The notes under the pieces were generated by a model. That model had not been told where the DNA came from. It ran no database searches and saw only the letters and a list, made by a program, of their open reading frames with translations. DNA of 64,000 nt from Agrococcus sp. SL85 (GTDB taxonomy: Bacteria; Actinomycetota; Actinomycetes; Actinomycetales; Microbacteriaceae). The translations under genes were made by a program, and so were the position numbers. The DNA is taken from positions 2,108,001-2,172,000 of the forward strand of contig NZ_CP113066.1 of NCBI RefSeq assembly GCF_026625845.1, given 5' to 3'. How positions within the stretch are numbered: the first letter of the stretch is position 1; each line of letters starts with the position of its first letter. This document shows positions 9,925 through 23,249 of the stretch, one piece after another.

Positions 9925-9971
9925 CCAGCGCGTCTGCGCGGCCGGTCGCGCCGATCCGCCGCCGCACGCAG

Positions 9972-10000
9972 CAGCGCCCCGGCCGAGGGCCGGGGCGCTG
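9972..10000. terminator. Hairpin terminator downstream of ppgK
   Basis: A perfect 13-bp stem, CAGCGCCCCGGCC with GGCCGGGGCGCTG, and a GAG loop. It lies about 20 bases after the ppgK stop in transcription direction and upstream of the fru promoter region. Confidence 0.8.
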
Positions 10001-10021
10001 GAGGGGCTGCGTGCGCTGAGG

Positions 10022-10789
10022 TCAGACCCCGCGCGCGAGCGCGGCCGCGCCGATGATCCCCGCGTTGTTGCGGAGCATCGCCGGCACGATGGGCGTCTCG
10101 AGCTGCAGCAGCGGCAGGAACTCGTCGGAGGACTTCGAGACGCCGCCGCCGACCACGAAGAGGTCGGGGGAGAAGAGGAACTCGAGGTGGCTGTAGTAGC
10201 GCTGCAGGCGCGCGGCCCACGCCTCCCAGCTGAGCCCCTCGGTCTCGCGCGCCTTGTTCGAGGCGCGGCGCTCGGCGATCTCGCCGTCGAGCTCGAGGTG
10301 CCCGAGCTCGGCGTTGGGGATGAGGGCGCCGTGGTAGATCAGCGCGCCGCCGATGCCCGTGCCGAGCGTCGTCATGACGACGAGGCCGTTCGCCTCCTTC
10401 GCCGCGCCGTAGTGGTCCTCGGCGAAGCCCGCGGCGTCGGCGTCGTTCACGAAGTGGATGTCGCGGCCGAGCGCCTGCTCGAAGAGCCGCTCCGCCTCGA
10501 GCCCGATCCACGCCTTGGAGACGTTCGACGCGCTCATGGTGCGGCCCTTGCGGACGATCGCGGGGAACGTCACGCCGATGGGGGTGTCGTCCTCGATGTC
10601 GAGCATGCCCACGAGCTCCACGACGACGTCGCGGATCGCATCGGGCTCGCCGCCCGCGGGGGTCGGGATCTTCACGCGGTCGCTGAGCAGCTCGCCGGTC
10701 TTCACGTCGACGAGGGCGGCCTTGACGCCCGTCCCGCCGATGTCGACGCCGACTGCCTGGTGCTTGGGCTTCGTCACCAGAGCATCCAA
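10022..10789 (-). CDS. ppgK: Polyphosphate glucokinase
   Basis: ROK-fold kinase of 255 residues that phosphorylates glucose using inorganic polyphosphate (and usually ATP), a trait typical of actinobacteria. The phosphate motif VGVDIGGTGVKAALVD lies near residues 13-28, the catalytic region is FVNDADAAGFAE, and the second phosphate loop reads TTLGTGIGGALI. The tail LRNNAGIIGAAALA is also typical. The start is uncertain by five codons: ATG 10789 gives the longest protein, while GTG 10774 (VTKPKHQAVG) has a weak TTGGAT box 6 nt upstream and would be leaderless. Single-gene unit between map and the fru operon. Confidence 0.93.
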   Translation of the reverse strand: MDALVTKPKHQAVGVDIGGTGVKAALVDVKTGELLSDRVKIPTPAGGEPDAIRDVVVELVGMLDIEDDTPIGVTFPAIVRKGRTMSASNVSKAWIGLEAERLFEQALGRDIHFVNDADAAGFAEDHYGAAKEANGLVVMTTLGTGIGGALIYHGALIPNAELGHLELDGEIAERRASNKARETEGLSWEAWAARLQRYYSHLEFLFSPDLFVVGGGVSKSSDEFLPLLQLETPIVPAMLRNNAGIIGAAALARGV

Positions 10790-10820
10790 CCACGTCCCGG
10801 ATGCGCCGGGAGACCGCCGC

Positions 10821-11687
10821 TCAGGAGGGCAGGGTGAGGATCTCGGCGCCCGTCTCGCGCACGACGATCGTGTGCTCGAACTGGGCCGTGATCGAGCGGT
10901 CGCGCGTGACGACCGTCCAGTCGTCGGCCCACATGTCCCACTCGTGGGTGCCCAGCGTGAGCATCGGCTCGATCGTGAAGACCATGCCCGGCTGGATGAC
11001 GTCGTCGTACCGGTCGGTGTCGTAGTGGGGGATGATGAGGCCCGAGTGGAACGACGTGCCCACGCCGTGACCGGTGAAGTCGCGCACGACGCCGTAGCCG
11101 AAGCGGTTCGCGTACATCTCGATCGCGCGGCCGATCACGTTCACGCGCCGGCCCGGCATCGCGGCCTTGATGCCGCGCTGCAGCGCGAGCTCGGTGCGCT
11201 CGACGAGCTGCGCGACCTCGTCGCTCGCCTGCCCGACGACGAAGGTGCGGTTGGAGTCGCCGTGCACGCCGTCGAGGTAGGCGGTGATGTCGATGTTGAC
11301 GACGTCGCCCTCGGCGAGCGCGGTGTCGTCGGGGATGCCGTGGCAGATCACCTCGTTGACGCTCGTGCAGCTCGACTTCGGGAAGCCTCGGTAGCCGAGC
11401 GTCGACGGGTACGCGCCCGCCGCCACGACCACCTCGTGCCCGATCGCGTCCAGCTCGTCGGTCGTGATGCCGGGGCGCACGGCCGCGCCGACCGCCGCGA
11501 TCGCGTCGGCGGCGACCCGCCCCGCCGCGCGGATGCGGTCGATGGTCGGCTCGTCGTAGACGTCGCCGCCGACGTGCTTCGCGGGGCCGGGGCGGCCCAC
11601 GTACTCCGGGCGCGCGATCGAGCGCGGCACCGGCCGCTCGGGGCCGATCCGGCCGGGGATGAGGTGACCGCTCGCGTCCTTGGGCAT
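10821..11687 (-). CDS. map: Methionine aminopeptidase, type I with N-terminal extension
   Basis: Removes the initiator methionine from nascent proteins; dinuclear metal enzyme. About 288 residues. The five metal ligands are visible in order: D in VVNIDITAY, D in VHGDSNRTF, H in FTGHGVGTSF, E in FTIEPML and E in QFEHTIVV. The first 40 residues, PGRIGPERPVPRSIARPEY, form the proline-rich extension of the actinobacterial MapB class. I start at ATG 11687 because a TAGGAT box ends 7 nt upstream; the ATG at 11696 lies inside that box. Divergent from the small gene whose 5' end is now the left attachment site. Confidence 0.94.
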   Translation of the reverse strand: MPKDASGHLIPGRIGPERPVPRSIARPEYVGRPGPAKHVGGDVYDEPTIDRIRAAGRVAADAIAAVGAAVRPGITTDELDAIGHEVVVAAGAYPSTLGYRGFPKSSCTSVNEVICHGIPDDTALAEGDVVNIDITAYLDGVHGDSNRTFVVGQASDEVAQLVERTELALQRGIKAAMPGRRVNVIGRAIEMYANRFGYGVVRDFTGHGVGTSFHSGLIIPHYDTDRYDDVIQPGMVFTIEPMLTLGTHEWDMWADDWTVVTRDRSITAQFEHTIVVRETGAEILTLPS

Positions 11688-11694
11688 GCGATCC

Positions 11695-11700
11695 ATCCTA
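11695..11700 (-). promoter_or_regulatory. Candidate -10 box (TAGGAT) of map
   Basis: TAGGAT on the minus strand, 7 nt before ATG 11687. This favours the second ATG as a leaderless start. Confidence 0.5.
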
Positions 11701-11748
11701 GGAGCGCGCGTCCGGGTGCCTCACGGAGCGCCGGGCTAGCATCCCCGC

Positions 11749-11780
11749 ATGAACGCTGCCGAGTACTGGTACAACCTCGA
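11749..11780 (+). repeat. Left attachment site (attL core)
   Basis: 32-bp perfect copy of 20119-20150. It is the first 32 bases of the coding start of the small conserved gene that is complete at the right end. Downstream the frame runs into element DNA and stops after 11 codons (TAG 11782-11784). A TAGCAT box (11737-11742) 6 nt before the ATG looks like the original leaderless promoter of the interrupted gene. Confidence 0.9.
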
Positions 11781-11793
11781 CTAGGCCCGGAAA

Positions 11794-12897
11794 TCAGCCG
11801 GATTCGGCGGTGCGGTCCGCAGGGAGTCCGCGAGACTCGCGCATCATGCCCGCTGCAGCCGCCCTCGTCTTGTCCTCCGCGGACGGCCAGAGGTGGCTGT
11901 AGGTGTTGAGCGTCGTGCTCGCCTTCGCGTGTCCGAGCGCGCGCTGCACGGTCACGACGTCGCAGCCGGCGGCGATGAGGCCGGAGGCGTAGAAGTGCCG
12001 GAGGTCGTGGAGTCGGAAGCGCTCGAGCGCGAGCTCGTCGAGGAGACGCCGCCAGCGGTTGCCCACGGCATCCTGGAGGGGCGGCTCGCCGGTCTTCGCC
12101 ATGAAGAGCCACTGCTCGCTGCCGCGCACGCCGACGTGCTCGACGTGCCAGGCGATCATCTCGACGAGCTCGTCGGGGAGCGAGACGGTGCGCTCGCTGC
12201 CGTGCTTCGGTGGCGTCGCCTGCACGGCGCCCGTCTCGTCGCGCTGGATCTGTCGCTGGACGTGCAGCTGTCGTCGGAGGAAGTCGACGTCGCCCAACTG
12301 CACGCCGGACGTCTCCCCAACGCGGAGGCCGGCGAACGCGCAAAGCGCGACGTAGAGCCGGAACCACTCCGGGGCACCGTCGACCACACGCCAGACGGTC
12401 TCGGGCGCGGGGATGGTCATCGCGTGTTCGCGGCGACGGAGGCGGGGGAGCGGGACGCCCTCGGCGGGGTCCTCGGCGAGCGCTCGATCGCGGACGGCGG
12501 CGCGCAGCATCGCGCGCACGTTCATCACGCGCGTGCGGATCGTCGACGGCGCGAGGCCCGCCTGAACCATGGACTTGACCCACGCCTCGACGTGCGACCG
12601 GCGCAGAGACGCGAGCGGGCGGTCGGAGAACGTGCAGGAAGTGAGCGCCCGCCGCATCGCGACGTGCGTGCCGGTCGCCCACAGTTGGCGCTGTGACCAG
12701 TCGTCGTAGAACTCCTCGAGCGTCGTGCGTGCCTTGGAGGGGTCGACGTAGCGGCCGGTGACGATGCTCGCGGTGACCTCGTCGAGCCATCGCTGCGCGT
12801 CGATCTTCCGCGGGAAGTGCCGGGCATGATCTCGGCCGTCAGCATCGCGGTAGCGAGCGCGCCAAGAGCCGTTCGGGCGCTTCTGCACGTTCGACAT
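11794..12897 (-). CDS. int: Tyrosine recombinase (phage-type integrase)
   Basis: Site-specific recombinase of about 367 residues. The N-terminal arm-binding region reads MSNVQKRPNGSWRARYRDAD; a SAM-like core-binding domain is at about 60-150; the catalytic domain follows. Catalytic residues seen: Arg in FAGLRVGE, Lys region TPPKHGSERTV, RLHDLRHFYASG (His-x-x-Arg), LGHAKASTT (His) and the nucleophile Tyr in LNTYSHLW. ATG 12897 has GGAGGAG about 7 bases upstream; longer in-frame starts overlap the repressor gene. Its 3' end reaches to within 14 bp of the attL core, the usual integrase position. It is co-directional with the repressor, four bases away, so the repressor promoter probably drives both. 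Confidence 0.94.
   Translation of the reverse strand: MSNVQKRPNGSWRARYRDADGRDHARHFPRKIDAQRWLDEVTASIVTGRYVDPSKARTTLEEFYDDWSQRQLWATGTHVAMRRALTSCTFSDRPLASLRRSHVEAWVKSMVQAGLAPSTIRTRVMNVRAMLRAAVRDRALAEDPAEGVPLPRLRRREHAMTIPAPETVWRVVDGAPEWFRLYVALCAFAGLRVGETSGVQLGDVDFLRRQLHVQRQIQRDETGAVQATPPKHGSERTVSLPDELVEMIAWHVEHVGVRGSEQWLFMAKTGEPPLQDAVGNRWRRLLDELALERFRLHDLRHFYASGLIAAGCDVVTVQRALGHAKASTTLNTYSHLWPSAEDKTRAAAAGMMRESRGLPADRTAESG
11811..11831 (+). repeat. Left arm-type repeat, 21 bp
   Basis: TGCGGTCCGCAGGGAGTCCGC, an exact match to 20006-20026. It contains GTCCGC twice as a direct repeat. It lies 30 bp inside attL, within the 3' end of the integrase gene. The position near each end suggests an integrase arm-binding site. 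Confidence 0.6.
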
Positions 12898-12901
12898 CGG
12901 T

Positions 12902-13576
12902 CTACTCCTCCCGCGCCGTCTGGATGCGCTCGCGGTCGAGCGCGGAGTTGTCGCTGCCGCGGTAGAGAGTCGAGCGCAGGTACGAGCCGGTGTGCGGCTC
13001 CACAGCGGCGGGCTCGTTGCTGCGGTCGCGCCGCAGAACGGCCGCGAAGAGCTCAATGGGGTCTCGCTCGTCGTCCAGCGCTGGGGCGTCACTGTGATTG
13101 AGCTCGTATCGGGCGGCGACGTCCAACGGACCGTCGTTCATCAGCGACATGACTCGGCCTGCCATGGAGTCCCCCTTCGTCTGCGTGTCTGCTTCCTCGG
13201 GGTTGAGGATGAGGTCGTCTGCCGCGAACGCGAGCTCGAGTCGCAGGCGGTTGTACTCCTCCATCTGGTCAATCAGCTGGTCGCGCATCGCCTCGAGCCG
13301 CGAAGCCGCTCGCGACACCTGAGTTCCGAGCTTCACGCCAGGCGCGAGCATCGAGCTCAATTGCGTCCCGAGGGCGTTCGCCAGCGCGACGGCCTCGTCC
13401 AGCCGCGGCGTCCGGCCGCCGCTCTCGAGTCGTGAGAGCCCGGACGCGTCGATTTGCAGTCCGTCGTCGACGAGGCGCGCTGCGAGCGCTCTCTGGCTGA
13501 GACCCAGGTCGCTCCGCGCTGCGGCGACCGCGGCTCCGAAATTGCGTCCGACGTGGTCGTAGTTCGACTGCTGCAC
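12902..13576 (-). CDS. XRE/CI-type repressor of the integrated element
   Basis: About 224 residues. The N-terminal helix-turn-helix reads DLGLSQRALAARLVDDGLQI with IDASGLSRLESGGRTPRLDEAVALANALG, a Cro/CI fold; a helical region (about 90-135) may serve for dimerisation; no peptidase-type autocleavage domain is obvious. I start at GTG 13576, which follows a TACGAT -10 by 6 nt, so the mRNA would be leaderless; TTG 13612 gives a longer frame but lies in the operator. Together with the divergent excisionase this is a lysogeny-type switch. The integrase follows after four bases. Confidence 0.85.
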   Translation of the reverse strand: MQQSNYDHVGRNFGAAVAAARSDLGLSQRALAARLVDDGLQIDASGLSRLESGGRTPRLDEAVALANALGTQLSSMLAPGVKLGTQVSRAASRLEAMRDQLIDQMEEYNRLRLELAFAADDLILNPEEADTQTKGDSMAGRVMSLMNDGPLDVAARYELNHSDAPALDDERDPIELFAAVLRRDRSNEPAAVEPHTGSYLRSTLYRGSDNSALDRERIQTAREE

Positions 13577-13582
13577 GCTCGC

Positions 13583-13612
13583 ATCGTAGTGCGCCTTGAC
13601 AACACTCGACAA
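13583..13612 (-). promoter_or_regulatory. Repressor promoter (leftward) of the switch
   Basis: TTGTCG (13612-13607), an 18-bp spacer, then TACGAT (13588-13583), 6 nt before GTG 13576. Its -35 shares bases with the opposite promoter's -35 region. Confidence 0.65.
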
Positions 13613-13625
13613 CCGAATCTACGAT
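13596..13625 (+). promoter_or_regulatory. Excisionase/early operon promoter (rightward) with operator
   Basis: Consensus-like TTGACA (13596-13601), an 18-bp spacer and TACGAT (13620-13625). The 17-bp imperfect dyad TTGACAACACTCGACAA (13596-13612) covers the -35 of both divergent promoters and is the best candidate for the repressor operator. Confidence 0.7.
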
Positions 13626-13671
13626 GCATGCACACAACACGATGCAAGACTGCAACACACAGGAGGAACCG

Positions 13672-13857
13672 ATGGCGACTCGACTGCTGACCGTCAGCGA
13701 GGTGGCGGCGCGGCTCAACCGCAGCGTCCAAGCGATCCGCTGGCAGATGCACAAGGGCGAGCTCAAGTTCGGCACGGTGGCAGGCAGACGGGTGATGCGC
13801 GAGTCCGACCTCGAGGCGTACATCGATGCGGCATTCGAAACCGAGGCGGCGTCGTGA
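13672..13857 (+). CDS. xis: Excisionase-like MerR-type HTH protein
   Basis: 61 residues, almost entirely one winged-helix DNA-binding domain: LLTVSEVAARLNRSVQAIRWQMHKGELKFGTVAGRRVMRESDLEAYID. This is the helix-turn-helix/excisionase type that bends DNA at attachment sites. ATG 13672 has AGGAGG 5 bases upstream; an in-frame ATG at 13624 lacks one. First gene of the rightward operon, opposite the repressor. Its stop overlaps the next start in GTGA. Confidence 0.85.
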   Translation: MATRLLTVSEVAARLNRSVQAIRWQMHKGELKFGTVAGRRVMRESDLEAYIDAAFETEAAS

Positions 13858-14237
13858 TTGAGGCGCTGACGGAGAAGGCCCCCGCCGAGGTGAAGGTCGG
13901 CGAGGGCCAGGAGAACGCACCTGCTGAGGCAACGAATCTCGCTGAGATCGTACCGGCGTGCGAGTCGCGCTGGCACAGCGAGGACCACGAGGGACATGGC
14001 CCCGGCAATGCGACGCACGCCGTGTTAGTCGAGTGTCCCTGGCGCTGCAGCGAGCCGCGCTGGGTGCTCCTCTGCGCCGGCAAGGTCAGCGCGACGCTCG
14101 TCCGGGCGGCTCTCGGTCGATCGGTGCGCTGCGCCCGGTGCGACCGCTCCGCCGGTGTGTGGTCGTTCTGGGCCCGCCTGGTCTCGCTCGCTTCGCTCGA
14201 GGTCGTCGCGGCGCGGCCTGACGGGCGGACGCGATGA
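13854..14237 (+). CDS. Hypothetical cysteine-containing protein of the element
   Basis: 127 residues, not recognised. It begins with GTG overlapping the xis stop (GTGA), so it is translationally coupled. The acidic, alanine-rich N-terminus is followed by a segment with seven cysteines, among them ECPWRC and RCARCDRS, spaced like a possible metal-binding knuckle. It ends in ATGA with the next gene. Expressed with the early operon; function unknown. Confidence 0.6.
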   Translation: MIEALTEKAPAEVKVGEGQENAPAEATNLAEIVPACESRWHSEDHEGHGPGNATHAVLVECPWRCSEPRWVLLCAGKVSATLVRAALGRSVRCARCDRSAGVWSFWARLVSLASLEVVAARPDGRTR

Positions 14238-14617
14238 GCGTCGAGGGGGTCGGCTACCGCGTCGGCCCGCGAGGCGAGTCCCAGCCCGTCGTCCAGTACA
14301 GCGACGCGCTCATCCCGCCCGTCCCAGAGCGGAGCGCTCCGGGCGCGCTGCTCGGACCTGGGGCGATTGTCACCAGTCGGCACCTCTCGGGGCGCGGTTC
14401 GTTCGTGCTGCAGGGCTTCGAGCGCGACGGCGAGCTGCGGCGCGCGGTCCTCGTGCCGCTCGGAGTGGCGGCCGAGCTCGCGCCCGGTGTCGAGGCGCCA
14501 GCCGAGCATCGCCACCTGGTCGCGCCGACATCGCTCGAGCCATCACCGTGGGCCGTCGTGCCGACGGCGAAGGGATCGAACCGAGGAGGCGCTCTTGCCC
14601 GACAGCAGACTGCCTGA
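14234..14617 (+). CDS. Hypothetical protein of the element
   Basis: 127 residues, not recognised. Start ATG 14234 overlaps the preceding stop by four bases (ATGA). The sequence is proline- and glycine-rich at the N-terminus, with a central beta-like stretch (GRGSFVLQGFERDGELRRAV) and no transmembrane segment. It overlaps the next gene by 23 bases. Existence is supported by the chain of coupled overlaps rather than by homology. Confidence 0.55.
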   Translation: MSVEGVGYRVGPRGESQPVVQYSDALIPPVPERSAPGALLGPGAIVTSRHLSGRGSFVLQGFERDGELRRAVLVPLGVAAELAPGVEAPAEHRHLVAPTSLEPSPWAVVPTAKGSNRGGALARQQTA

Positions 14618-15137
14618 CCGGTGGCTGCACGACGTCGATCTGATGACTCTCTCGCCGGCCGCGTGGCAGTTCTTCACCGTCGCGCTCATGTTCTGCAACG
14701 CGCGTGAAAGCGATGGTTCGCTCCGCGACGCCGAGCTCCGCATGCTGCCGATCGACCCGCGACCCGAGGCGATCGCCGAAGTCGTCGCGACCGGCCGCAT
14801 CCAGCGAACCGAGGGTGGCTACCAGTTCGTCGGCTGGGACAAGTCCCTGGGGCAGACCGCCGCGGCCGCACTGGAAGCCCGTCGAGACGCGAACCGGGCT
14901 CGACAGGCAGCCAAGCGTGCACGCGACGCGCGAGCCGCTGAGAGCGCGCCGGTCACCCGTGAGTCACGGGCGCCGTCACGGCGTGATTCACGCATGACGC
15001 CTAAGGAGAGGACAAGGCAAGGCCAGGACGAGGAAGCGACAGCAACCACGGGCTGGCCGACCGCGACTCCCGGCAGCGGCAGCACCTTCCCCCTCCCGCC
15101 CTACGACGGCACCGACCCCCGAAAGGACGCAGCATGA
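14595..15137 (+). CDS. Phage-type replication/helix-turn-helix-like protein
   Basis: About 180 residues starting at TTG 14595, chosen because GAGGAGG (14583-14589) stands 5 bases upstream. The N-terminal region LPDRWLHDVDLMTLSPAAWQFF resembles the winged-helix start of replication-associated proteins common in actinophages and small islands. The middle is a charged helix (ALEARRDANRARQAAKRARDAR) and the tail is low-complexity. A role in element replication is inferred from type and position only. Confidence 0.55.
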   Translation: MPDSRLPDRWLHDVDLMTLSPAAWQFFTVALMFCNARESDGSLRDAELRMLPIDPRPEAIAEVVATGRIQRTEGGYQFVGWDKSLGQTAAAALEARRDANRARQAAKRARDARAAESAPVTRESRAPSRRDSRMTPKERTRQGQDEEATATTGWPTATPGSGSTFPLPPYDGTDPRKDAA

Positions 15138-15376
15138 CCACCGCCACCCTCAGCTCGATTGGAGACCGGCTCGACGCCGCTCGCCGCGACCTCGGCATGA
15201 CCTGGCCCGACCTCGCCGTGGCCACGCAGATGACCGAGCCGATCCTGCGCCGCAGACTCCACCGGCCCGCCGGCATGACGCTCGCGGAGCTCGACGTGAT
15301 CGCGCGAGCGCTCGACGTCGTGCCGGCGAGGCTCTTCGGTGAGGTCGGCCGCCCCACGGAATTGCCGCATGGCTGA
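15134..15376 (+). CDS. Small XRE-like helix-turn-helix protein
   Basis: 80 residues. RLDAARRDLGMTWPDLAVATQ, MTEPILRRRLHRPAGMTLAELDVIARALDV and the ending PARLFGE follow the layout of a Cro/CI helix-turn-helix. ATG 15134 overlaps the previous stop in ATGA. It could be a Cro-like regulator or an activator in the early operon. Confidence 0.7.
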   Translation: MTTATLSSIGDRLDAARRDLGMTWPDLAVATQMTEPILRRRLHRPAGMTLAELDVIARALDVVPARLFGEVGRPTELPHG

Positions 15377-15590
15377 GGTGCTCTACCTCGTGATCCCGCC
15401 CGGGGAGACCTCGGAGCGGCAGATGGTCGTCAACCACCCGTGGACGGGACCCACGACGACCATGGCGCCGAACATCAAGGTCATCTGGGCGCCGCTCATG
15501 ATCAACCCCTCTAGCGGCGAGCTCGCCCACGGTTGGGACCAGTGGCGTCTCGACGGCGGTGTCCTCTACCAGGTGCGAGCGAAGTCATGA
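15369..15590 (+). CDS. Small hypothetical protein
   Basis: 73 residues, starting with ATG 15369, overlapping the preceding gene by eight bases. It is not recognised and has no obvious domain; aromatic residues (HPWTGPTTTMAPNIKVIWAP, DQWRLDGGVLYQV) suggest a small beta-rich fold. Last gene before the hairpin at 15629-15658. Confidence 0.55.
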   Translation: MAEVLYLVIPPGETSERQMVVNHPWTGPTTTMAPNIKVIWAPLMINPSSGELAHGWDQWRLDGGVLYQVRAKS

Positions 15591-15628
15591 CCGGCGAGCA
15601 CTAGCGCGCCAGCGGCCCGGGAAGAGAT

Positions 15629-15658
15629 GTGGCCCGGTCGCTGCATCGACCGGGCCAC
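15629..15658 (+). terminator. Hairpin terminator ending the early operon
   Basis: A perfect 12-bp stem, GTGGCCCGGTCG with CGACCGGGCCAC, and a six-base loop. It separates the early genes from the capsid unit. Confidence 0.75.
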
Positions 15659-15716
15659 CACTGATCCTCAAGGAGGTGCTCCAAGCCTCCCACACCCCAC
15701 CCACACGGAGGCCACC

Positions 15717-16013
15717 ATGACCGATGATCCGACACCCACTGACGACCCCGCGATCGTGCTCCTCGCCCTCCGCATCGTCGACGCCACCCGGCTCGATGAT
15801 CAGTCGGCGTTGCGACGCGCTCTCCTCGATGCGATCGAGTCGCGCCAGACAGCATCCGTGCTCCGGTCGATCGCGGCGCTCGCGGCCGAGCTCGTGCGAG
15901 CGCTGCCCGACGCCGACGAGCGCATGGCGAGATGGCTGCTCGCGACCGACCTCGAGATCCCCGCCCGCGACACCCCGCCCGACGCCAATGCGTCGACGCC
16001 GGATCGCCGATAG
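15717..16013 (+). CDS. Hypothetical helical protein upstream of capsid gene
   Basis: 98 residues, mostly predicted alpha-helix (DDPAIVLLALRIVDATRL, RRALLDAIESRQTASVLRSI, ALAAELVRALPDADERMARW). Not recognised. ATG 15717 has CGGAGG a few bases upstream. Its place just before the capsid gene would suit a scaffold, capsid-size or packaging-redirecting factor, as satellites often encode such helpers, but this is only inference. Confidence 0.6.
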   Translation: MTDDPTPTDDPAIVLLALRIVDATRLDDQSALRRALLDAIESRQTASVLRSIAALAAELVRALPDADERMARWLLATDLEIPARDTPPDANASTPDRR

Positions 16014-16065
16014 ACTCGAACCAACGTTCGAAGCGACGTCGCAACCGGCAGCCAGCACCGAGGAG

Positions 16066-16170
16066 CCCCACGGGGCCAAGGCGCTCGACTCCCCACGGGG
16101 ACCTGCACACCGGCCGACCAGCCCGAACGCGAGTGACGGCGTAGATCCGAAGCCGCCCACCCCCACGGGG
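16066..16170. repeat. Three copies of the palindromic motif CCCCACGGGG in the capsid leader
   Basis: Copies at 16066-16075, 16091-16100 and 16161-16170 in the 248-bp gap before the capsid gene. Each can form a tiny hairpin. No other gene is seen in the gap. Possible protein- or RNA-binding sites; function unknown. Confidence 0.5.
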
Positions 16171-16261
16171 GCCAGGGCCGCGAGCGCATCCGCCACGAGT
16201 CGCGGAACCCTCTCGCCGTGCGTCCGCGCGGCGGATTCCAGTCACTCTCAGGAGACACCAC

Positions 16262-17434
16262 ATGTCGAAGAACACCGGCTCCACCACCGCCCTGCGCGAG
16301 GAGCTCACCGCCATCCAGAAGAAGATGCAGGCCACCATCGGCTCCGCCAAGGGCGCAGGCCGCGCCATCACCCCCGCCGAAGCCCAGCAGGTCGAGAAGC
16401 TCGGCGAGGAGGCGCTCGAGCTCAAGGGCCGCATCGACAGCATCGAGCGCTCCGAGTCCCAGTTGAAGGAGCTGCTCGACCTCGGCAAGGGCTCGAGCGG
16501 CGACGGCTCCAAGTACCTCTCCCTCGGCGGCCGCGGCGCCAAGGCCGCCGGCAAGGTCATCGGCGACACCTTCCGCGAGCGCGACGACGTCCGCTCCAAG
16601 GGCATCGTCGCCGCCGGCTCGCAGCTCAGCCCCATGCCGCTCGTCGAGGCCAACCCCGTCGAGCTCGGCATGGCGCCCGCCTCGATCGTCAACCTCATCC
16701 CGGCCGTCGAGCAGACGAGCCCGACCTACAAGTACCTCCGACAGACGGAGTACACGAACAACGCTGACGTCGTCGCCCCGGGCGAGCTCAAGCCGACGTC
16801 GACGACGACGGTCGAGTCCGTCGAGAACGAGCTCAAGGTCATCGCCCACCTGTCGGAGCCCGTTGACATCTACCTCCTCAACGACAACAGCACCCTCGAC
16901 TCGTTCATCGAGCGACAGCTCCTCTGGGGCATCCAGTCGAAGCTGCAGCAGCTCGTCGTCGCGGGTCAGGAGGCCGACGAGATCCAGGGCATCCTCACCA
17001 CCACCGGCGTTCAGCAGCAGCCGTTCCGAGCCGACGCGATCACCACCCTCCGCGCCGCGGTCACCCGCCTCGAGAACCTCGGCTACAAGGCTGGCGCGTT
17101 CGTCCTCAACCCGGACGACTGGGAGGCCATTGAGACGAACCGCATCACCAGCGGCAGCTTCGACCTCGGCGGCCCCATCGACCGCGGCGAGCGCAAGGCC
17201 TGGGGCGTCCCCGTCGTCACGAGCCCCGACATCGCCGCCGGCACCGCGTTCGCCCTCGACCTCACCGCCGTCGGTGTCCGCTACGGCGCAGAAGGCATCA
17301 AGATCCGCTGGGACGGCGGCGGCGCTCTCTTCGAGCGCAACCAGGCGCGAGCGCTCGTCGAGGGCCGCTTCGCGATCGACGTCCTCCGCCCCCGCGGCAT
17401 CGTCACGATCGAGCTCACGGCCACCACGCCGTAG
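16262..17434 (+). CDS. HK97-family phage major capsid protein
   Basis: 390 residues of the phage_capsid (HK97 gp5) fold. Residues about 5-100 are a charged coiled-coil delta-type domain (ALREELTAIQKKMQ; EEALELKGRIDSIERSESQL) that a protease usually removes. Residues about 120-390 are the capsid core: TSPTYKYLRQTEYTNNA, an E-loop-like segment, LLWGIQSKLQQLVVAGQ, FVLNPDDWEAIE, GVPVVTSPDI, and FAIDVLRPRGIVTIEL at the end. GGAG lies about 8 bases before ATG 16262. No portal, protease or terminase gene is nearby, which is unusual. It could coat element DNA with help from a helper phage, or build altered capsids that interfere with one. Confidence 0.93.
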   Translation: MSKNTGSTTALREELTAIQKKMQATIGSAKGAGRAITPAEAQQVEKLGEEALELKGRIDSIERSESQLKELLDLGKGSSGDGSKYLSLGGRGAKAAGKVIGDTFRERDDVRSKGIVAAGSQLSPMPLVEANPVELGMAPASIVNLIPAVEQTSPTYKYLRQTEYTNNADVVAPGELKPTSTTTVESVENELKVIAHLSEPVDIYLLNDNSTLDSFIERQLLWGIQSKLQQLVVAGQEADEIQGILTTTGVQQQPFRADAITTLRAAVTRLENLGYKAGAFVLNPDDWEAIETNRITSGSFDLGGPIDRGERKAWGVPVVTSPDIAAGTAFALDLTAVGVRYGAEGIKIRWDGGGALFERNQARALVEGRFAIDVLRPRGIVTIELTATTP

Positions 17435-17451
17435 CCCACGCCCAGCAGCAG

Positions 17452-17486
17452 CGGAGGGGCCGAGCGCATGAGCGCCGGCTCCTCCG
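17452..17486. terminator. Hairpin between capsid gene and DUF4145 gene
   Basis: Inverted repeat CGGAGGGGCCG with CGGCTCCTCCG, with one mismatch. It lies between two convergent genes. Confidence 0.6.
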
Positions 17487-17504
17487 TTCGTCGAGCGACG
17501 GTGA

Positions 17505-18242
17505 CTAGCTGGCGCTCGCCTCGGGCTCTGCATGCTCGGCAGCAGCGGCCGCGAGCTTCCGCACGCCATCGACCTGCCCCTCGACGTAGTCCCGCTTCGC
17601 CTTCGGGATCGCGTTGTAGATCCGCTCGGCTCGCTTCGGGACCGCGATGAGCGCCTCGCACGCTTCGTTCACGACCGTGATGATCGTTTCGGCGATCTCC
17701 GCATCGTCCTCGTCGAGGTAGACGGCGACGAGCTCGGGCGCACCTTGCTCGTCGTGAAGGGTGGAGTTGCCGAGGACTCGGAGCGACGTGAGCAGCTGGA
17801 AGAGCGCCCACGGCACCTCAGACTCCGTGTTGACGATCAGCTCGGAGAGATCCCGTCCCTCCACCCCGGCGTGCCGCAGCAGGCGCTCGAGCGCTCCGCG
17901 CGCGAGAGCCGCCGCCGCACGTCGTGAGTGTGGGAAGACCGCCGCTGCCTCGCTGTAGAGCTGCAGCGCCTCCGGGGGCATGTCCTCATGCGGGCCAGGG
18001 AGGGTGGAGGCTGTGGGGTAGATCATCTGGTTGTCGTGCCAGACGGCGATGTTCTCGCAGACGCCGCAGCGTGAGAACGACCACTGCGCGATCGAGCGAG
18101 GGTCACGCCGGCTCCTGCTCGTCAGGACCGTGCCCGTGCCCTCCTTGACCAGGCGGGAGTCGCTCTGCTGAGCGAGCACGCCGCAATGCGGACAGTAGAA
18201 CGACTTCTTGCCCTGCGCGGGCTTGCCATCAGGCTGCGACAT
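17505..18242 (-). CDS. Zinc-ribbon and DUF4145-type protein (possible defence cargo)
   Basis: 245 residues. The N-terminal zinc ribbon has FYCPHCGVL and CGVCENIAV (two CxxC pairs, about 40 residues apart). The rest is helical: PPEALQLYSEAAAVFPHSRRAAAALARGALERLLRH, then LRVLGNSTLHDEQG, the arrangement of DUF4145 proteins. That domain often occurs alone or fused to nucleases in restriction and defence loci. The gene is on the opposite strand to the capsid unit, the usual place for accessory cargo. There is no nuclease motif here. A defensive role is inference. Confidence 0.75.
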   Translation of the reverse strand: MSQPDGKPAQGKKSFYCPHCGVLAQQSDSRLVKEGTGTVLTSRSRRDPRSIAQWSFSRCGVCENIAVWHDNQMIYPTASTLPGPHEDMPPEALQLYSEAAAVFPHSRRAAAALARGALERLLRHAGVEGRDLSELIVNTESEVPWALFQLLTSLRVLGNSTLHDEQGAPELVAVYLDEDDAEIAETIITVVNEACEALIAVPKRAERIYNAIPKAKRDYVEGQVDGVRKLAAAAAEHAEPEASAS

Positions 18243-18518
18243 GTGCCGAGCCTACGAGAGCCCGCTGACGGCGCGGACGGCGCCCGCCCGCCTACCGACG
18301 CTCCTGGGCCCGCACGCCGCCTCCGAGAGCCGCCTCGACCCTCATCCGGGCCGAGCAACGGGGGGAGGGGGCGTTCGGATCTTCGGAGACCCGACGGCCG
18401 GAACACTCCCCGCCGCGAGGCTTCCTCTCTCCCCGACTCCGCGACGGTAGGGGGGGTCGCGCGCGCGAGGCGTCGCCTCGGCGCGCCGCGTGTCGGGGGC
18501 CAGGGCTACCGTCGGCGC

Positions 18519-18995
18519 ATGACCCAGTCTGCAATCACCCGCCGCGACGTCGCGGCACGCCTCCACGACCTTGACCCCTCCTGGATGGACGTTTGGTCGA
18601 GCGACAACGCACATATGCACCGAACCCTCGAGCTGGCAGCGTCACTCCTCGGCGATCAGCAGCCGCGGTACGCCGAGGTTCAAGCAGGCGTCGCTGCACC
18701 GAAGTTCGTGCTCGTCGTGATCGCGGACGACCGCGTCGTTCGCGTAGACGGTGCTGTCGACGGCGGTTGGCCGCGGGCCACGGTGGTGCCGCGTCACGAG
18801 CTGCGCGCGCTCACGCTGCTCGAGACTCCGCATCAGCCATTGGACTTCGGCGAGTTGAGCAGCGATTCGGTCGCTGTCGCTCTCGACTTCGGTGCCTTCA
18901 CTGTGGAGCTCCCCAGCAAGCGCAACGGCCGGCGCGGTCGCGTCCTGGCGGAGCTACTGCCTTCGCTTCTCGCCGACCGTGTGAGCGCTAGGTGA
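18519..18995 (+). CDS. Hypothetical protein with leaderless-type start
   Basis: 158 residues, not recognised. TACCGT (18507-18512) lies 6 nt before ATG 18519, so transcript and coding start may coincide. There is a beta-rich middle (KFVLVVIADDRVVRVDGAV; RATVVPRHELRALTLLE; VAVALDFGAFTVEL) and no membrane segment, perhaps a small PH-like domain. It stands alone between two genes of opposite strand. The 276 bp before it hold no gene I can support. Confidence 0.55.
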   Translation: MTQSAITRRDVAARLHDLDPSWMDVWSSDNAHMHRTLELAASLLGDQQPRYAEVQAGVAAPKFVLVVIADDRVVRVDGAVDGGWPRATVVPRHELRALTLLETPHQPLDFGELSSDSVAVALDFGAFTVELPSKRNGRRGRVLAELLPSLLADRVSAR

Positions 18996-19017
18996 CTTGG
19001 TCGATACTCGGCAAGGC

Positions 19018-19314
19018 TCAGACCCACCGCGACGCTAGCCCCTCCTCGGCCCCAGCGGGAGCAGTGCTGGGCGGGAGCGCAAGCGTGCGCGCCGGCAGCG
19101 GCTGATCGGTGCGGGCCCGGCGCTTCGACTCGATCCACATCACGACGTCCGTCAACTCGTACACGATCGTCTTTCGCGTCACGGCGGAGTAGACCGGCCC
19201 GCCGCCTGCGTAGCGGAGCTGCGCGAGGTTGCCTGTGGTGAGCCCGGGGACCATGTCTGCCATCTGCGCCGCGCTCAGGTACGTCGGGGGCCATGCCAGT
19301 GGGAGCGAGTTCAT
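19018..19314 (-). CDS. AlpA/excisionase-like HTH protein
   Basis: About 98 residues. YLSAAQMADMVPGLTTGNLAQLRYAGGGPVYSAVTRKTIVYELTDVVMWIESKR fits the short winged-helix domain of AlpA/HTH_17 proteins, which act as excisionases or activators in mobile elements. The tail is proline-rich. ATG 19314 is chosen because the domain begins shortly after it; the ribosome signal is poor and the frame continues upstream, so the start is uncertain. Confidence 0.65.
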   Translation of the reverse strand: MNSLPLAWPPTYLSAAQMADMVPGLTTGNLAQLRYAGGGPVYSAVTRKTIVYELTDVVMWIESKRRARTDQPLPARTLALPPSTAPAGAEEGLASRWV

Positions 19315-19393
19315 CCCTTCAGGCTTCCAGAAGAACCGGTCGAAACCTGCGGCTAGGCCGCCTCGACCGGCTGCACGGCGCCAGGATGGGGCC

Positions 19394-19837
19394 ATGAGCG
19401 AGACTCCGTCCGGCTACCTCGATCGCTCCGCTGCTGCGGCGCGAGTCGACCGCTCTGAGCGGACCATCTTCCGATGGGTCGAGCGCGGCGAGATCACCGC
19501 GATCATGGGCTTGTTCCGCGAGACCGACCTGCTCGAGGTCGACCGGACGATGCGGCTCCGCCGCGGGCGACCAGGCAAGCCGCGCGGGCAGTCGAAGCCG
19601 GAGTTGCAGCTGGGCGGCATGGCGGGCGCCGAGGGGCACGGCCCGCTCGCCGTCGCCGACGAGGCGGCCGAGGACGTCGTCGACGCACTCCGCGATCTCA
19701 TGTTCGTGCTCGAGGACGTCGAGAACGGAACGGTGGAGCTGCCGGCACACTACGCCGTCGCGCTCACCGACGCACGGCTCGTGCTCAGCCGTCTCGCGGA
19801 ACTGGTGCCGGATGCGGCCGAAAGCCTCGCAGCATGA
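19394..19837 (+). CDS. HTH-domain protein of the element
   Basis: 147 residues. The N-terminal YLDRSAAAARVDRSERTIFRWVERGEITAI is a MerR/HTH_17-like recognition domain; the C-terminal part is acidic and helical (EDVVDALRDLMFVLEDVENG; DARLVLSRLAELVPD). The preceding CAGGAT box, 5 nt before ATG 19394, may be a leaderless promoter. It is divergent from the AlpA-like gene and overlaps the next start in ATGA. Confidence 0.65.
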   Translation: MSETPSGYLDRSAAAARVDRSERTIFRWVERGEITAIMGLFRETDLLEVDRTMRLRRGRPGKPRGQSKPELQLGGMAGAEGHGPLAVADEAAEDVVDALRDLMFVLEDVENGTVELPAHYAVALTDARLVLSRLAELVPDAAESLAA

Positions 19838-19968
19838 CGCCGGAGAAGCGACCGACTCGTGACGAAGCGATCGCGGCCGCCGCGCTCGTCGTCTCGGAGT
19901 GGGCGGCCAGCCTGACTGACGAGGAGTACGCGGACCTCGCCGAGAGGGCCTCGCGCAATCCGGGCTGA
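19834..19968 (+). CDS. Very small protein, 44 residues
   Basis: Starts at ATG 19834 overlapping the preceding stop by four bases. MTPEKRPTRDEAIAAAALVV is followed by LTDEEYADLAERASRN, i.e. two helices. Unknown; the coupled start is the main support. It is the last gene before the right end; the 150 bp after it hold the right arm repeat and a promoter box. Confidence 0.5.
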   Translation: MTPEKRPTRDEAIAAAALVVSEWAASLTDEEYADLAERASRNPG

Positions 19969-20005
19969 GCGCTCGCGGGCCATCGGTGGCCGGCGCTGGG
20001 GATCT

Positions 20006-20026
20006 TGCGGTCCGCAGGGAGTCCGC
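20006..20026 (+). repeat. Right arm-type repeat, 21 bp
   Basis: Exact copy of 11811-11831, 92 bp inside the right attachment site, in intergenic DNA. Same orientation as the left copy. Confidence 0.6.
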
Positions 20027-20104
20027 AAGAACCTCAGCCGAGGGCGAATGATGCAAACTCCTCACCAACACAAATTGCCTGAGAATCCGCGGATCCCCGA
20101 CCCC

Positions 20105-20110
20105 TACAAT
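20105..20110 (+). promoter_or_regulatory. Element-borne -10 box (TACAAT) reading across attR
   Basis: TACAAT lies 8 nt before ATG 20119. It is inside the element and replaces the host TAGCAT box left behind at 11737-11742. No good -35 is visible. Confidence 0.5.
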
Positions 20111-20118
20111 CGGGCGCT

Positions 20119-20150
20119 ATGAACGCTGCCGAGTACTGGTACAACCTCGA
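20119..20150 (+). repeat. Right attachment site (attR core)
   Basis: 32-bp perfect copy of the left core. It forms codons 1-10 and part of codon 11 of the intact small gene. Confidence 0.9.
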
Positions 20151-20316
20151 GACGGGCGTCGTCGAGGAGGGCATGGTCTCGCCGGGCTACGACCGCGCGG
20201 GGCCCTTCGCCACGCGCGAGGAGGCCGCCCGTGCACCCGAGATCATCGAGCAGCGCTCGAAGCAGTGGGCCGCCGAGGACGCCGCGGACGACGACTGGGG
20301 CGGCGCGAAGCAGTAG
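20119..20316 (+). CDS. Small conserved protein used as integration target
   Basis: 65 residues: it opens with MNAAEYWYNLETGVVEEGM and continues SPGYDRAGPFATREEAARA, ending in an acidic tail with DDDWGGAKQ. Short proteins of this type are recalled from other Microbacteriaceae; no function is known to me. The element lies exactly at the initiation codon and keeps the reading frame intact, so the protein sequence is unchanged while the promoter is exchanged. Before insertion it lay divergent to map. Confidence 0.8.
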   Translation: MNAAEYWYNLETGVVEEGMVSPGYDRAGPFATREEAARAPEIIEQRSKQWAAEDAADDDWGGAKQ

Positions 20317-20419
20317 CCCGGGCGAGCGATCGATCGGTCTCAGCGCTCGGCGAGTCGCACTATGCGGCTCGTGCTGCGCTCAGCCCGGTCCTGCGCGGAG
20401 CAGGTCGAGCGCGCGCGAC

Positions 20420-20929
20420 CTAGGCGGCGGCGAGCACCTTGCGCAGCGTGCGCAGGTTGCGGGTGGTGACGCGATCCTTCGCGGTGCGCTCCAGCGCCTT
20501 CGCGAACGGGCTCGTGAGCGTCGTGCCCCTCGGGTTCGACCAGTAGACGAGCTCGCGGCCGCCCGCGAGTGCCTCGCCCTCGCCCGGCTCGAGCGCCGCG
20601 AGCGCGGGCGCGACGCCCGCCTCGAGGGCGAACACGACGTACGGCGTGTGCGCGTCGTCCTCGGCGTGCGGGTACGCGTCGACGACCGTCCGGAGCGCAT
20701 CGACCCCGATGCCGTGCAGTCGGATGCGTCGCCCGTAGCGCGCCTCGAGCGCCGCCTCCGCGGTCGATGCCGCCGCCGCGACGGAGGGCGCGGTCACGAC
20801 CGCGTTGCCGCTCGCGAGCACCGTCGTGACGTCGCCGAGCCCGGCCTCCGACAGCAGCGCGCGCAGGTCGGCCGAGCGCACCGTCACCCCGCCGACGTTC
20901 ACGCCGCGCAGCAGCAGGGCGACGCGCAC
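20420..20929 (-). CDS. DUF1697 family protein
   Basis: 169 residues. The opening MRVALLLRGVNVGGVTVRSA, then LASGNAVV and YWSNPRGTTLTSPFAKALE, are typical of DUF1697, a conserved family of unknown function with a ferredoxin-like fold. It starts four bases after the panB stop and is thus probably co-transcribed and coupled with it, although no functional link is known. Confidence 0.88.
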   Translation of the reverse strand: MRVALLLRGVNVGGVTVRSADLRALLSEAGLGDVTTVLASGNAVVTAPSVAAAASTAEAALEARYGRRIRLHGIGVDALRTVVDAYPHAEDDAHTPYVVFALEAGVAPALAALEPGEGEALAGGRELVYWSNPRGTTLTSPFAKALERTAKDRVTTRNLRTLRKVLAAA

Positions 20930-20933
20930 GGCG

Positions 20934-21794
20934 CTACTCGTACTCGTGCTCGGGCGCGGGGTAGGCGCCGGAGGCGACGTCCTCGCGGAAGGCGACGGCC
21001 GCCGCCTCGAGGTCCTTGCCGATCTGCGCGTACTGCTTGACGAAGCGCGGGATGCGGCCGGTGGCGAGCCCCGCCCAGTCGGTCCAGACGAGCAGCTGGC
21101 CGTCGCAGTGCGGGCCCGCGCCGACGGAGATCGTGGGTATCTCGAGCGCCTCGGTCACCGCCTTCGCGGCGTCGGAGGGCACCATCTCGAGCACGACCGC
21201 GAAGGCGCCCGCGGCCTGCACGGCGCGCGCGTCGCGCAGCAGCTGCTCGGCCCCGGCCTCGCCGCGGCCCTGGATGACGTGCCCGCCGAGCCCGTGCTCC
21301 GACTGCGGCGTGAAGCCGATGTGCGCCATGACGGGGATGCCGGCCTCGACGATGTGCCGGATCTGCTCGGCCGAGCGCTCGCCGCCCTCGAGCTTCACCG
21401 CGTGCGCGCCAGTCTCCTTCATGAAGCGGATGGCCGTGTGCACGGCCTCGCGCGGGTTCGTCTCGTAGGAGCCGAAGGGGAGGTCGGCCACGACGAGCGC
21501 GCGCTGCGCGGCCCTCGCGACGGCGCGCGTGAGCGGGATGAGCTCGTCGACGGTGACGGGCAGCGTCGTGTCGTAGCCGAAGACCGTGTTGCCTGCGGAG
21601 TCGCCGACGAGCAGGAAGTCGATGCCGGCGCGGTCGAAGATCTGCGCCGAGAGGAAGTCGTAGCTCGTGAGGCCCACGATGGGGTGCCCGTCGCGCTTCG
21701 CCTGCAGGAAGTGACGCGTGCGCACGCGCCTCGGTCCGCCGCTCGTGCCGCCGCCGTAGGGCGCGGCGACCTCGCCGCTCTCGCTCGCTGCCAT
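20934..21794 (-). CDS. panB: 3-methyl-2-oxobutanoate hydroxymethyltransferase
   Basis: First committed step of pantothenate/CoA synthesis: transfers a hydroxymethyl group from methylene-tetrahydrofolate to ketoisovalerate. 286 residues. Seen: [31 protein letters not shown] (substrate and metal Asp), [22 protein letters not shown] and [27 protein letters not shown]. An N-terminal tail of about 25 residues precedes the barrel. A TAGGCT box (plus-strand 21801-21806) lies 6 nt before ATG 21794, suggesting a leaderless transcript. Confidence 0.95.
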
Positions 21795-21800
21795 GCTCCG

Positions 21801-21806
21801 AGCCTA
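21801..21806 (-). promoter_or_regulatory. Candidate -10 box (TAGGCT) of panB
   Basis: TAGGCT on the minus strand, 6 nt before the panB ATG; leaderless arrangement. Confidence 0.5.
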
Positions 21807-21917
21807 GCCCCGCGCGCCTCCGCGGCCGGCCCGCTCAGGCCGCCCCGCCCCGCGCCCCGCCTCTCAGGCGCGCCGACGCGGGGGCACTAGCCTGGGAGCA
21901 GGCAGAGAGGGGCCGGG

Positions 21918-23249
21918 ATGGACAAGCAGCGGGACTTCGTGCTCCGGACGATCGAGGAGCGCGGCATCAAGTTCGTGCGGCTCTGGTTCACCGACGTGCT
22001 CGGCACCCTGAAGTCGGTGGCGATCGCCCCGGCGGAGGTCGAGGGCGCGTTCACCGAGGGCCTCGGCATCGACGGCTCGTCGATCGAGGGGCTCTCGCGC
22101 TCCTCCGAGGCCGACGTCATCGCGAAGGCCGACCCCTCGACGTTCCAGATCCTCCCGTGGCGCGGCGAGATCGACCCGACCGCGCGCATGTTCTGCGACA
22201 TCTCGACGCCCGACGGCGAACCGGCGGCGGCCGACCCGCGGCACGTGCTGAAGCGCACGCTCGCGAAGGCCGCCGACCTCGGCTTCAGCTTCTACACGCA
22301 CCCCGAGTGCGAGTTCTACCTGCTGAAGTCGGCCGACGTGCAGAACCCCGAGCCCGTCGACCGCGCCGGCTACTTCGACAACGTGCCCGGCGGCTCCGCC
22401 CACGACTTCCGCCGTGCGAGCGTGCGGATGCTCGAGGACCTCGGCATCTCGGTGGAGTTCAGCCACCACGAGGCCGGCCCCGGCCAGAACGAGATCGACC
22501 TGCGCTACGCCGACGCGCTCTCGACCGCCGACAACCTCATGACCTTCCGCACGGTCGTCAAGGAGGTCGCGATCTCGCAGGGCGTCTACGCGACCTTCAT
22601 GCCGAAGCCCTTCGCCGACGCGCCCGGCAGCGGCATGCACACCCACATGTCGCTCTTCGAGGGCGAGCGGAACGCCTTCTACGACGCCTCCGGGCAGTAC
22701 CGGCTGTCGAAGATCGGGCGGCAGTTCGTGGCGGGCCTGCTGCGCCACGCGCCCGAGTTCACGGCCGTCACGAACCAGTTCGTCAACTCCTACAAGCGGA
22801 TGTGGTCGGGCGACGAGGCGCCGAGCCACATCTCCTGGGGCCACAACAACCGCTCCGCGCTCGTGCGCGTGCCGCTCTCGAAGCCCAACAAGGCGCAGTC
22901 GGCGCGCGTGGAGTACCGCGGCCTCGACTCCGCCGCGAACCCCTACCTCGCCTTCTCGGTGCTGCTCGCCGCGGGCCTCAAGGGCATCCAGGAGGGCTAC
23001 GAGCTGCCCGAGGAGGCCACCGACGACGTGTGGCAGCTCTCGGACCGCGAGCGCAAGGCGCTCGGGTTCCAGCCGCTGCCCGCGAGCCTCGACCGCGCGC
23101 TCGGCGCGATGGAGGAGTCGGAGCTCGTGGCCGAGACGCTCGGCGAGCAGGTCTTCTCCTACTTCCTGCGCAACAAGCGCGAGGACTGGAAGCGCTACCG
23201 CGCCCAGGTGACGCAGGTCGAGCTCGAGTCGAACCTGCTGCTGCTCTAG
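21918..23249 (+). CDS. glnA2: Glutamine synthetase, GlnA2 type (no adenylylation site)
   Basis: ATP-dependent ligase joining ammonia to glutamate. 443 residues. Motifs: DGSSIEG (52-58), the metal-binding PECEFYLL and ISVEFSHHEAGPGQNEIDLR, the ammonia/ATP loop PGSGMHTHMSLFEG and NRSALVRVP. The length and lack of a clear [14 protein letters not shown] adenylylation segment place it in the I-alpha GlnA2 class. It is followed four bases later by glnE, the usual actinobacterial pair. A TAGCCT box (21890-21895) is the possible -10 and GAGAGGGG a weak ribosome site. Confidence 0.92.
   Translation: MDKQRDFVLRTIEERGIKFVRLWFTDVLGTLKSVAIAPAEVEGAFTEGLGIDGSSIEGLSRSSEADVIAKADPSTFQILPWRGEIDPTARMFCDISTPDGEPAAADPRHVLKRTLAKAADLGFSFYTHPECEFYLLKSADVQNPEPVDRAGYFDNVPGGSAHDFRRASVRMLEDLGISVEFSHHEAGPGQNEIDLRYADALSTADNLMTFRTVVKEVAISQGVYATFMPKPFADAPGSGMHTHMSLFEGERNAFYDASGQYRLSKIGRQFVAGLLRHAPEFTAVTNQFVNSYKRMWSGDEAPSHISWGHNNRSALVRVPLSKPNKAQSARVEYRGLDSAANPYLAFSVLLAAGLKGIQEGYELPEEATDDVWQLSDRERKALGFQPLPASLDRALGAMEESELVAETLGEQVFSYFLRNKREDWKRYRAQVTQVELESNLLLL

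Follow-up and report, generated by a model that had tools for sequence, protein, structure and literature searches.

A 64,000-nucleotide stretch of the Agrococcus sp. SL85 genome (contig NZ_CP113066.1, positions 2,108,001 to 2,172,000; hereafter the window) carries an integrated element at positions 11749–20150, with a unit of 8370 bp (8.37 kb) lying between two exact 32-bp copies. This element is probably (at about 60%) a phage satellite integrated in the chromosome, of the actinobacterial kind that combines an integrase with a major capsid protein (MCP), making its own shell and borrowing the protease, portal, terminase, and tail of a helper phage, for which a prophage resident in the same genome is a candidate. 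The observations made here concern its borders, its gene content, its recurrence, the mostly separate lineage of its MCP, the residues conserved in this protein, and an excess of related contigs of 8–10 kb. A first-pass annotation made from the letters alone had already suggested a satellite, and this suggestion was strengthened by the absence of a full prophage at the site among the loci compared and by the wide occurrence of relatives bearing the integrase-plus-capsid set, both within the family and in other Actinomycetes.

According to the annotation, the MCP is the only recognizable structural gene. Among the open reading frames (ORFs) of the island, no virion or packaging family other than the MCP was matched at E ≤ 0.001 in Pfam (10 ORFs) or PHROGs, and local profiles run on window positions 9500–22500 detected the MCP alone. 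These profiles were built from four annotated phages and then refined on the loci in hand; they recovered the large terminase (TerL) in 8/8, the portal in 8/8, and the protease in 6/8 positive prophage loci, which were the same loci used for refinement and include no independent control, while the endolysin profile was silent in all loci and hence uninformative. The gene at 19394–19837 was considered as a small terminase but matched phrog_57 at E 0.1 only and is not claimed as such. No gene for redirecting capsid size or packaging was recognized in the island, which has its own MCP and several ORFs without a family. The feature set of classical phage-inducible chromosomal islands (PICIs) is present, namely an integrase, divergent regulators, a replication gene, and attachment (att) repeats. 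The start and stop codons of the early genes overlap from one gene to the next, and four small ORFs, two of them resembling helix-turn-helix (HTH) proteins, follow the DUF4145 gene. The first-pass annotation had called 32-bp direct repeats, an integrase, a regulator/excisionase pair, overlapping early genes, a clean HK97 capsid, and a DUF4145 gene, with the capsid as the single structural gene; the Pfam matches agree with these calls, the repeat search and the profile searches bear out the other two points, and the capsid gene matches PF05065 at 4e-22. The features are as follows, in window positions:

11749–11780, + strand: attL, a 32-bp copy of the start of a small host gene (exact direct repeat)
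11794–12897, − strand: tyrosine integrase, 367 aa (PF00589, 1.8e-22; phrog_1, 3.9e-62)
11811–11831, + strand: left copy of a 21-bp inner repeat containing GTCCGC-N5-GTCCGC, within the 3′ end of int
12902–13612, − strand: XRE-type repressor candidate (PF01381, 9.4e-9; phrog_4, 8e-8)
13672–13857, + strand: excisionase/AlpA-like HTH_17 protein, divergent from the repressor (PF12728, 5e-10; phrog_66, 1.3e-6)
13854–14237, + strand: early ORF A, cysteine-rich, no family; its start overlaps the preceding stop
14234–14617, + strand: early ORF B, no family
14595–15137, + strand: replication-initiation-like protein, 180 aa (phrog_2447, 7e-13)
15134–15376, + strand: Cro/C1-type HTH protein (HTH_26; PF13443, 1.2e-5)
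15369–15590, + strand: small ORF C, no family
15717–16013, + strand: ORF D, 98 aa, upstream of the MCP gene; homologues in G064 and on one contig of 8314 bp
16262–17434, + strand: HK97-type MCP, 390 aa, with delta domain (PF05065; AlphaFold2 model; Foldseek)
17505–18242, − strand: zinc-ribbon and DUF4145 protein matching PD-T7-4 (PDLC04109, 5.6e-39; PF13643, 1.1e-7)
18519–18995, + strand: ORF E, 158 aa, no family
19018–19314, − strand: small HTH/excisionase-like protein (phrog_66, 0.0099), shared by tblastn with the elements in loci L026, L027, L031, and L034
19394–19837, + strand: HTH_17-like DNA-binding protein, 147 aa (phrog_2474, 2.8e-4)
19834–19968, + strand: ORF F, 44 aa, no family; its start overlaps the preceding stop
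20006–20026, + strand: right copy of the 21-bp inner repeat, a putative integrase arm site
20119–20150, + strand: attR, the identical 32 bp, opening the intact host gene (exact repeat; empty site in relatives)
20119–20316, + strand: host 65-aa gene, the integration target, found in 23/24 same-genus genomes including our own

The AlphaFold2 model of the MCP (pLDDT 85.5) places two N-terminal helices, at residues 8–31 and 38–75, ahead of the capsid core. Its best solved matches in Foldseek were the phage capsids D3, phiXacJX1, and HK97, with E-values down to 3.5e-20, and an encapsulin (9fy6, E 5e-13) ranked behind them; the model, Foldseek, and the alignment all place an HK97 fold with an N-terminal delta domain in this protein. 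In a profile alignment to HK97 gp5 (3qpr), HK97 residues K169, N356, and E363 (numbered by our own count), which make the HK97 cross-link, align with K177, N360, and E367 of our protein. These three residues and Lys113, whose position presumably lies near the cleavage point where the HK97 delta domain ends, were invariant in 29/29 aligned rows drawn from 106 homologues. Lys113 is followed by a small residue, a pattern also seen in the resident prophage MCP. In a set of 26 rows that included prophage MCPs, Lys113 and the cross-link residues were present in 25, the exception being the very divergent MCP of L097, a locus from the same genus. The retention of the boundary in an element with no recognizable protease is the main reason to propose that a helper protease would mature the shell. 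Additionally, rough dN/dS values of 0.26–0.62 in five pairs of element MCPs suggest that the protein is kept under constraint.

The same arrangement recurs in many genomes. The MCP search of 398 family genomes gave a match in 18, six of which were prophage loci with TerL and portal genes, and another (G113) was a 3.3-kb contig too short to judge, with a protease directly before its MCP. The remaining 11, window included, bear an MCP without a detected head or packaging module, and an integrase or recombinase was in view in 10 of them; this group includes two loci near contig ends (G367, G324) and one with a tape measure gene (G060). Scans of GTDB genome contigs and viral contigs with the single MCP sequence gave no match. 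With the MCP alignment as the query, 16 loci were retrieved from GTDB genome contigs and one from viral contigs. The former belong to Microbacterium, Leucobacter, Curtobacterium, Compostimonas, Microcella, Arthrobacter, Rhodococcus, Tomitella, Gordonia, Nocardioides, Streptomyces, and one Hyphomicrobiales metagenome-assembled genome, two of them being the same contigs as G060 and G366, and no TerL or portal match was obtained with the local profiles in any of the 16. In the class-wide search, 35/394 genomes matched the MCP; among 16 class loci that were read, 11 gave no TerL or portal match (10 of these with an integrase or recombinase) and five were prophage-like. For the 26 element loci, the local profiles gave no match to TerL or portal (0/26), and an integrase or recombinase was in view in 25/26, although some of the tyrosine integrase matches are probably host Xer genes adjoining serine-recombinase elements. 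The MCP lies between direct repeats of at least 22 bp in 13/26 element loci, with a spacing of 6.9–9.7 kb in 11 of the 13, and repeats of at least 23 bp, spaced 8.5–13.0 kb, occur in 8/11 of the later class loci; by eye, many flanking repeats resemble tRNA 3′ ends. In L095 the MCP is broken into two frames, and five further loci (L096, L033, L016, L036, and L147) are on short contigs or near contig ends; none of these six was used as proof.

Some relatives carry an additional virion gene. A protease is fused or adjacent to the MCP in L083, L089, L133, L134, and L145, the fusion to a prohead protease being found in L133, L134, and L089 as well as in database proteins P0053, P0055, P0056, and P0059. 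The protease match in L082 turned out to be the MCP frame itself and was discarded as a separate gene. Outside these loci, a protease is attributed to phiRv1 of Mycobacterium as well. Tape measure proteins were found in L027 (Compostimonas; 11115–13241, phrog_991, 8.8e-83) and in L097 (11056–13875, phrog_9228, 1.6e-47) with no other tail gene detected, which hints that some satellites may set tail length too. Putative tape measure genes have already been published for capsid-forming PICIs (cf-PICIs) and PLE-like elements, according to the accessible text of PMC12987554. Regarding ORF D, the element of G064 has a homologue upstream of its own MCP; its proposed role as a companion of every MCP was rejected, as significant matches were limited to G064 and one 8314-bp contig, and weaker look-alikes in other elements fell below significance. 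HNH endonuclease genes adjoin the MCP in L028, L030, L036, and L092 (confirmed by PHROGs in L092 and L030, by eye in the rest), and the serine-recombinase MCP elements L029, L030, L088, L092, and L094 lie in or beside apparent comM/dprA genes, judged by eye from translations. One genome (G592) holds two capsid-bearing elements, L139 and L140, with related MCPs and tRNA-like repeats 12.5 and 13.0 kb apart.

The MCPs of these elements form a lineage mostly separate from those of phages. In a first tree of 58 MCPs, which included L097 and in which sixteen island rows were database proteins of unseen genomic context, the window protein fell in a 30-row clade (support 100/98) with no phage rows inside. 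In a second tree of 52 MCPs, which included 16 new loci and left out L097, 29 element rows formed a clade (100/96) containing 0/17 phage or prophage rows. The nearest relatives of the window MCP were database proteins P0002 (92% identity) and P0003 (52%), followed by G064 (51%). Isolated phage MCPs reached at most about 30% identity in the 20 of 409 records listed, and all 409 were under 60%.

Among public contigs of 8–100 kb, those of MCP homologues end at 8–10 kb in 19/35 cases, compared to 4/51 when the resident prophage MCP served as the control query (Fisher p 2.7e-6). The longest contig per cluster was used, for 105/106 and 119/120 rows with our own genome dropped; the control comprised the best 120 of 2951 matches, and the genomic context of the homologues was unseen. 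Such a pile-up at 8–10 kb is expected of free small genomes. The MCP sibling at 92% and an ORF D sibling at 68% are each found on 8314-bp contigs, presumably one and the same, whose length is near that of the 8370-bp unit. Together with the recurrent gene set, the contigs of about 8–10 kb suggest that integrase-plus-MCP elements are widespread in Actinomycetes.

Concerning the integration site, the 32-bp repeat occurs in exactly two + strand copies within the window, at 11749 and 20119, and equals the first 32 bp of the 65-aa host ORF. No full-length prophage was found at this site among 22 other same-genus loci, one of which (L065) ends before the junction and could not be judged. The site was empty in 16/22, as indicated by one-piece alignment over the joined flanks, and nearly empty in two more (L046, L048), where both flanks are present with a short gap between them. 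The alignment was one-sided in three loci (L044, L049, L050, in genomes G411, G402, and G409); prophages were considered there and rejected, since ordinary host genes, named by eye, were found instead. The 21-bp inner repeats at both ends look like integrase arm sites, and comparable inner repeats occur in the elements of L031, L082, and L087. By eye, the element apparently supplies its own −10-like box (TACAAT) before the host gene, at 20095–20119, in place of the native TAGCAT found at the left end, at 11733–11749.

The gene beside the capsid gene is a likely anti-phage gene, judging from its family match. Its product matches the PADLOC PD-T7-4 model (PDLC04109) over residues 8–222, a relationship to a defence family that the earlier annotation of this DUF4145/zinc-ribbon gene had missed. 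DUF4145 is described as a HEPN-type domain in the accessible text of PMC3710099. The PD-T7-4 system described in the available part of PMC9519451 differs in host and phages. A homologue of this gene lies beside the MCP in the G076 element (L032), and none of the other loci searched for it had one.

Under the satellite reading, the element would stay repressed in the chromosome and would be excised and replicated when a helper phage is active. It would then produce its own HK97-type shell protein, whose delta domain the helper prohead protease would remove at the conserved Lys boundary, the helper portal nucleating the shell. The helper terminase would pack the 8.4-kb DNA, presumably into a small shell in keeping with the small genome, and a helper tail would be attached. 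Between mobilizations, the PD-T7-4-like gene could protect the host from other phages, as its family membership implies. Induction, packaging, shell size, and helper identity are the parts of this reading that we infer. The candidate helper, found in the same genome at about 1432.6–1466 kb, is a siphovirus-type prophage that encodes TerL, a portal, a protease, tail proteins, and, by eye, an endolysin. By eye, the motif VGPRGE(S/T)xPVV occurs both in ORF B and in a small gene (G000:C1, about 1467316–1467429) at that prophage's right end.

Several findings weigh against a satellite that builds its own shell with helper parts. The MCPs of the resident prophage and the island share only about 28% identity, so the portal and protease of this prophage may not suit the island protein. 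Inside the island, DNA in common with the prophage is limited to one notable match of 28 bp within the two MCP genes; a shared packaging site was sought with a blastn comparison between the island region and the 60 kb surrounding the prophage and was rejected, as only short matches were obtained, the 28-bp match having the best E-value and the longest (38 bp, 87%) lying outside the island. Neither a packaging signal nor a small terminase was found in the island. Among the 18 MCP-bearing family genomes, eight had no match to any portal, protease, or TerL, so they have no visible resident helper, in a scan whose TerL model missed the TerL of our own prophage too. The local profiles lose sensitivity with distance: when fixed and applied to five prophage loci fetched later, they recovered the portal in 5/5, TerL in 3/5, and the protease in 3/5, so the negatives carry less weight in distant relatives than they do in the window. 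Phage MCPs contain Lys113 and the cross-link residues too, and these residues may therefore reflect ancestry and not present use. The dN/dS values are crude, having been estimated by NG86 on biased codons, and one prophage pair gave 0.70. Locus L080, which was counted as an element and falls in the 29-row clade, has a head-tail adaptor match as well, with 14.7 of its 22.5 kb read. Finally, the second tree requires three label changes: L145, L147, and L148 group with phages, and L032, L033, and L036 join weakly. Capsid-bearing elements accordingly seem, from these trees, to have arisen more than once, and a single clade for all island MCPs was dropped, though the first tree had required one change (support 89/93).

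Other explanations were weighed against the same evidence. The island MCP could co-assemble with the helper MCP and force the shell to be smaller, in the manner of the scaffold-like factors of Staphylococcus aureus pathogenicity islands (SaPIs) and P4, with no shell of its own. Satellites often redirect helper capsid size (PMC6893505, in the text accessible), and neither portal nor protease was found in the island; however, the identity of about 28% to the resident prophage MCP makes one mixed lattice unlikely, and a complete MCP with a delta domain and cross-link residues exceeds what a modifier needs, so we regard this explanation as unlikely, even as the strongest of the alternatives. Slightly less likely still is interference, in which MCP made during infection would poison helper head assembly, acting as a defence alongside the PD-T7-4-like gene. 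The first-pass annotation had left the choice between such a poison subunit and a shell of the satellite's own. The adjoining defence-family gene speaks for interference, whereas the cleavage boundary and cross-link residues are retained over the aligned lineage, and the extra protease or tape measure genes of relatives fit particle building; the residues favour a working shell and make the poison subunit the less favoured mechanism, on residue evidence.

A decayed prophage that happened to retain its integrase, early genes, and capsid would account for the HK97-type MCP, the phage-type early genes, and the failure to find a terminase. We consider it very improbable, since the reading frames and att sites are intact, the same minimal set occurs in many genera with mostly its own MCP lineage, no full prophage was found at the site, and the contigs show the 8–10-kb excess. 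The marks of degradation, broken genes and full-length relatives at the site, were not seen, and the recurrence of an integrase with a lone MCP in the family and in other Actinomycetes makes a chance remnant unlikely. Least probable of all, by a little, is a plasmid-like or integrative element whose MCP would form a compartment like that of an encapsulin, with no relation to phage particles: the HK97 fold is common to encapsulins, but phage capsids outrank them structurally, and the delta domain and E-loop lysine are retained.

Beyond the element itself, it is conceivable, at slightly under even odds, that the satellite belongs to an old, class-wide actinomycete lineage of 'shell-only' satellites, which would keep their own capsid apart from phages and rent all other virion parts, including the maturation protease, with some relatives adding single plug-in parts such as a fused or adjacent protease or a tape measure. 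If so, the shell protein on which the helper protease and portal must work is foreign to them, with only about 28% identity here to the MCP of the resident prophage. Such a lineage would show the reach of virion-part mixing between distant phages and what the portal and protease recognize in a capsid protein. A single 2.7-Mb contig of this genome holds both an element that looks complete and a candidate helper prophage, which makes the idea directly testable.

When compared to known systems, the element is of the same kind as the Mycobacterium candidate PICIs by their definition of integrase plus MCP, as given in the accessible text of PMC10654092. Those elements, which include phiRv1 and phiRv2, are likewise small and att-flanked, carry an integrase and a major capsid gene without a demonstrated helper, and integrate at tRNA or other sites; they differ in host genus, and some are said in PMC10654092 to include terminase or scaffold genes, whereas only the MCP was found in ours. 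Here, integration machinery and an MCP gene without a full prophage module were found in a host outside Mycobacterium. The first-pass annotation had called this architecture little described, which holds for Microbacteriaceae within the open-licence literature but not for the architecture itself, already published for Mycobacterium in the portion available of PMC10654092. The cf-PICIs also encode a capsid protein, but their own genes also supply protease, portal, connectors, terminases, and HNH, a tail being all that they need, as presented in the available parts of PMC10690885 and PMC12409344. Their set of protease, portal, head-tail connectors, small and large terminase, and HNH was not found in our element by Pfam, PHROGs, or the local profiles (the protease profile recovering 6/8 positives), and, with protease, portal, and terminase lacking from the matches, it is not a cf-PICI. 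In the open-licence literature on actinobacterial, Microbacterium, and Streptomyces satellites, the only relevant work found was that on MulchRoom and MiniFlayer, satellites of Streptomyces phages (PMC10690885, accessible text). These are also capsid-coding actinomycete satellites; they carry terminases, portal, scaffold, and adapter without obvious replicases, in contrast to the MCP and replication-initiation-like gene found here. SaPI/PICI and P4 satellites share the integrase, regulator switch, replication-type gene, size class (9.5 kb for the average PICI, 10 kb for P4; PMC10803314), and proposed helper dependence with our element, but they rely on the MCP of the helper, whose size many of them redirect, and the available text of PMC6893505 and PMC10803314 does not describe them as carrying an MCP. 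In the literature covered, satellites either borrow the shell of the helper or carry a whole head-and-packaging kit; what would be new here is a class-wide lineage of shell-only form in which the maturation features are conserved.

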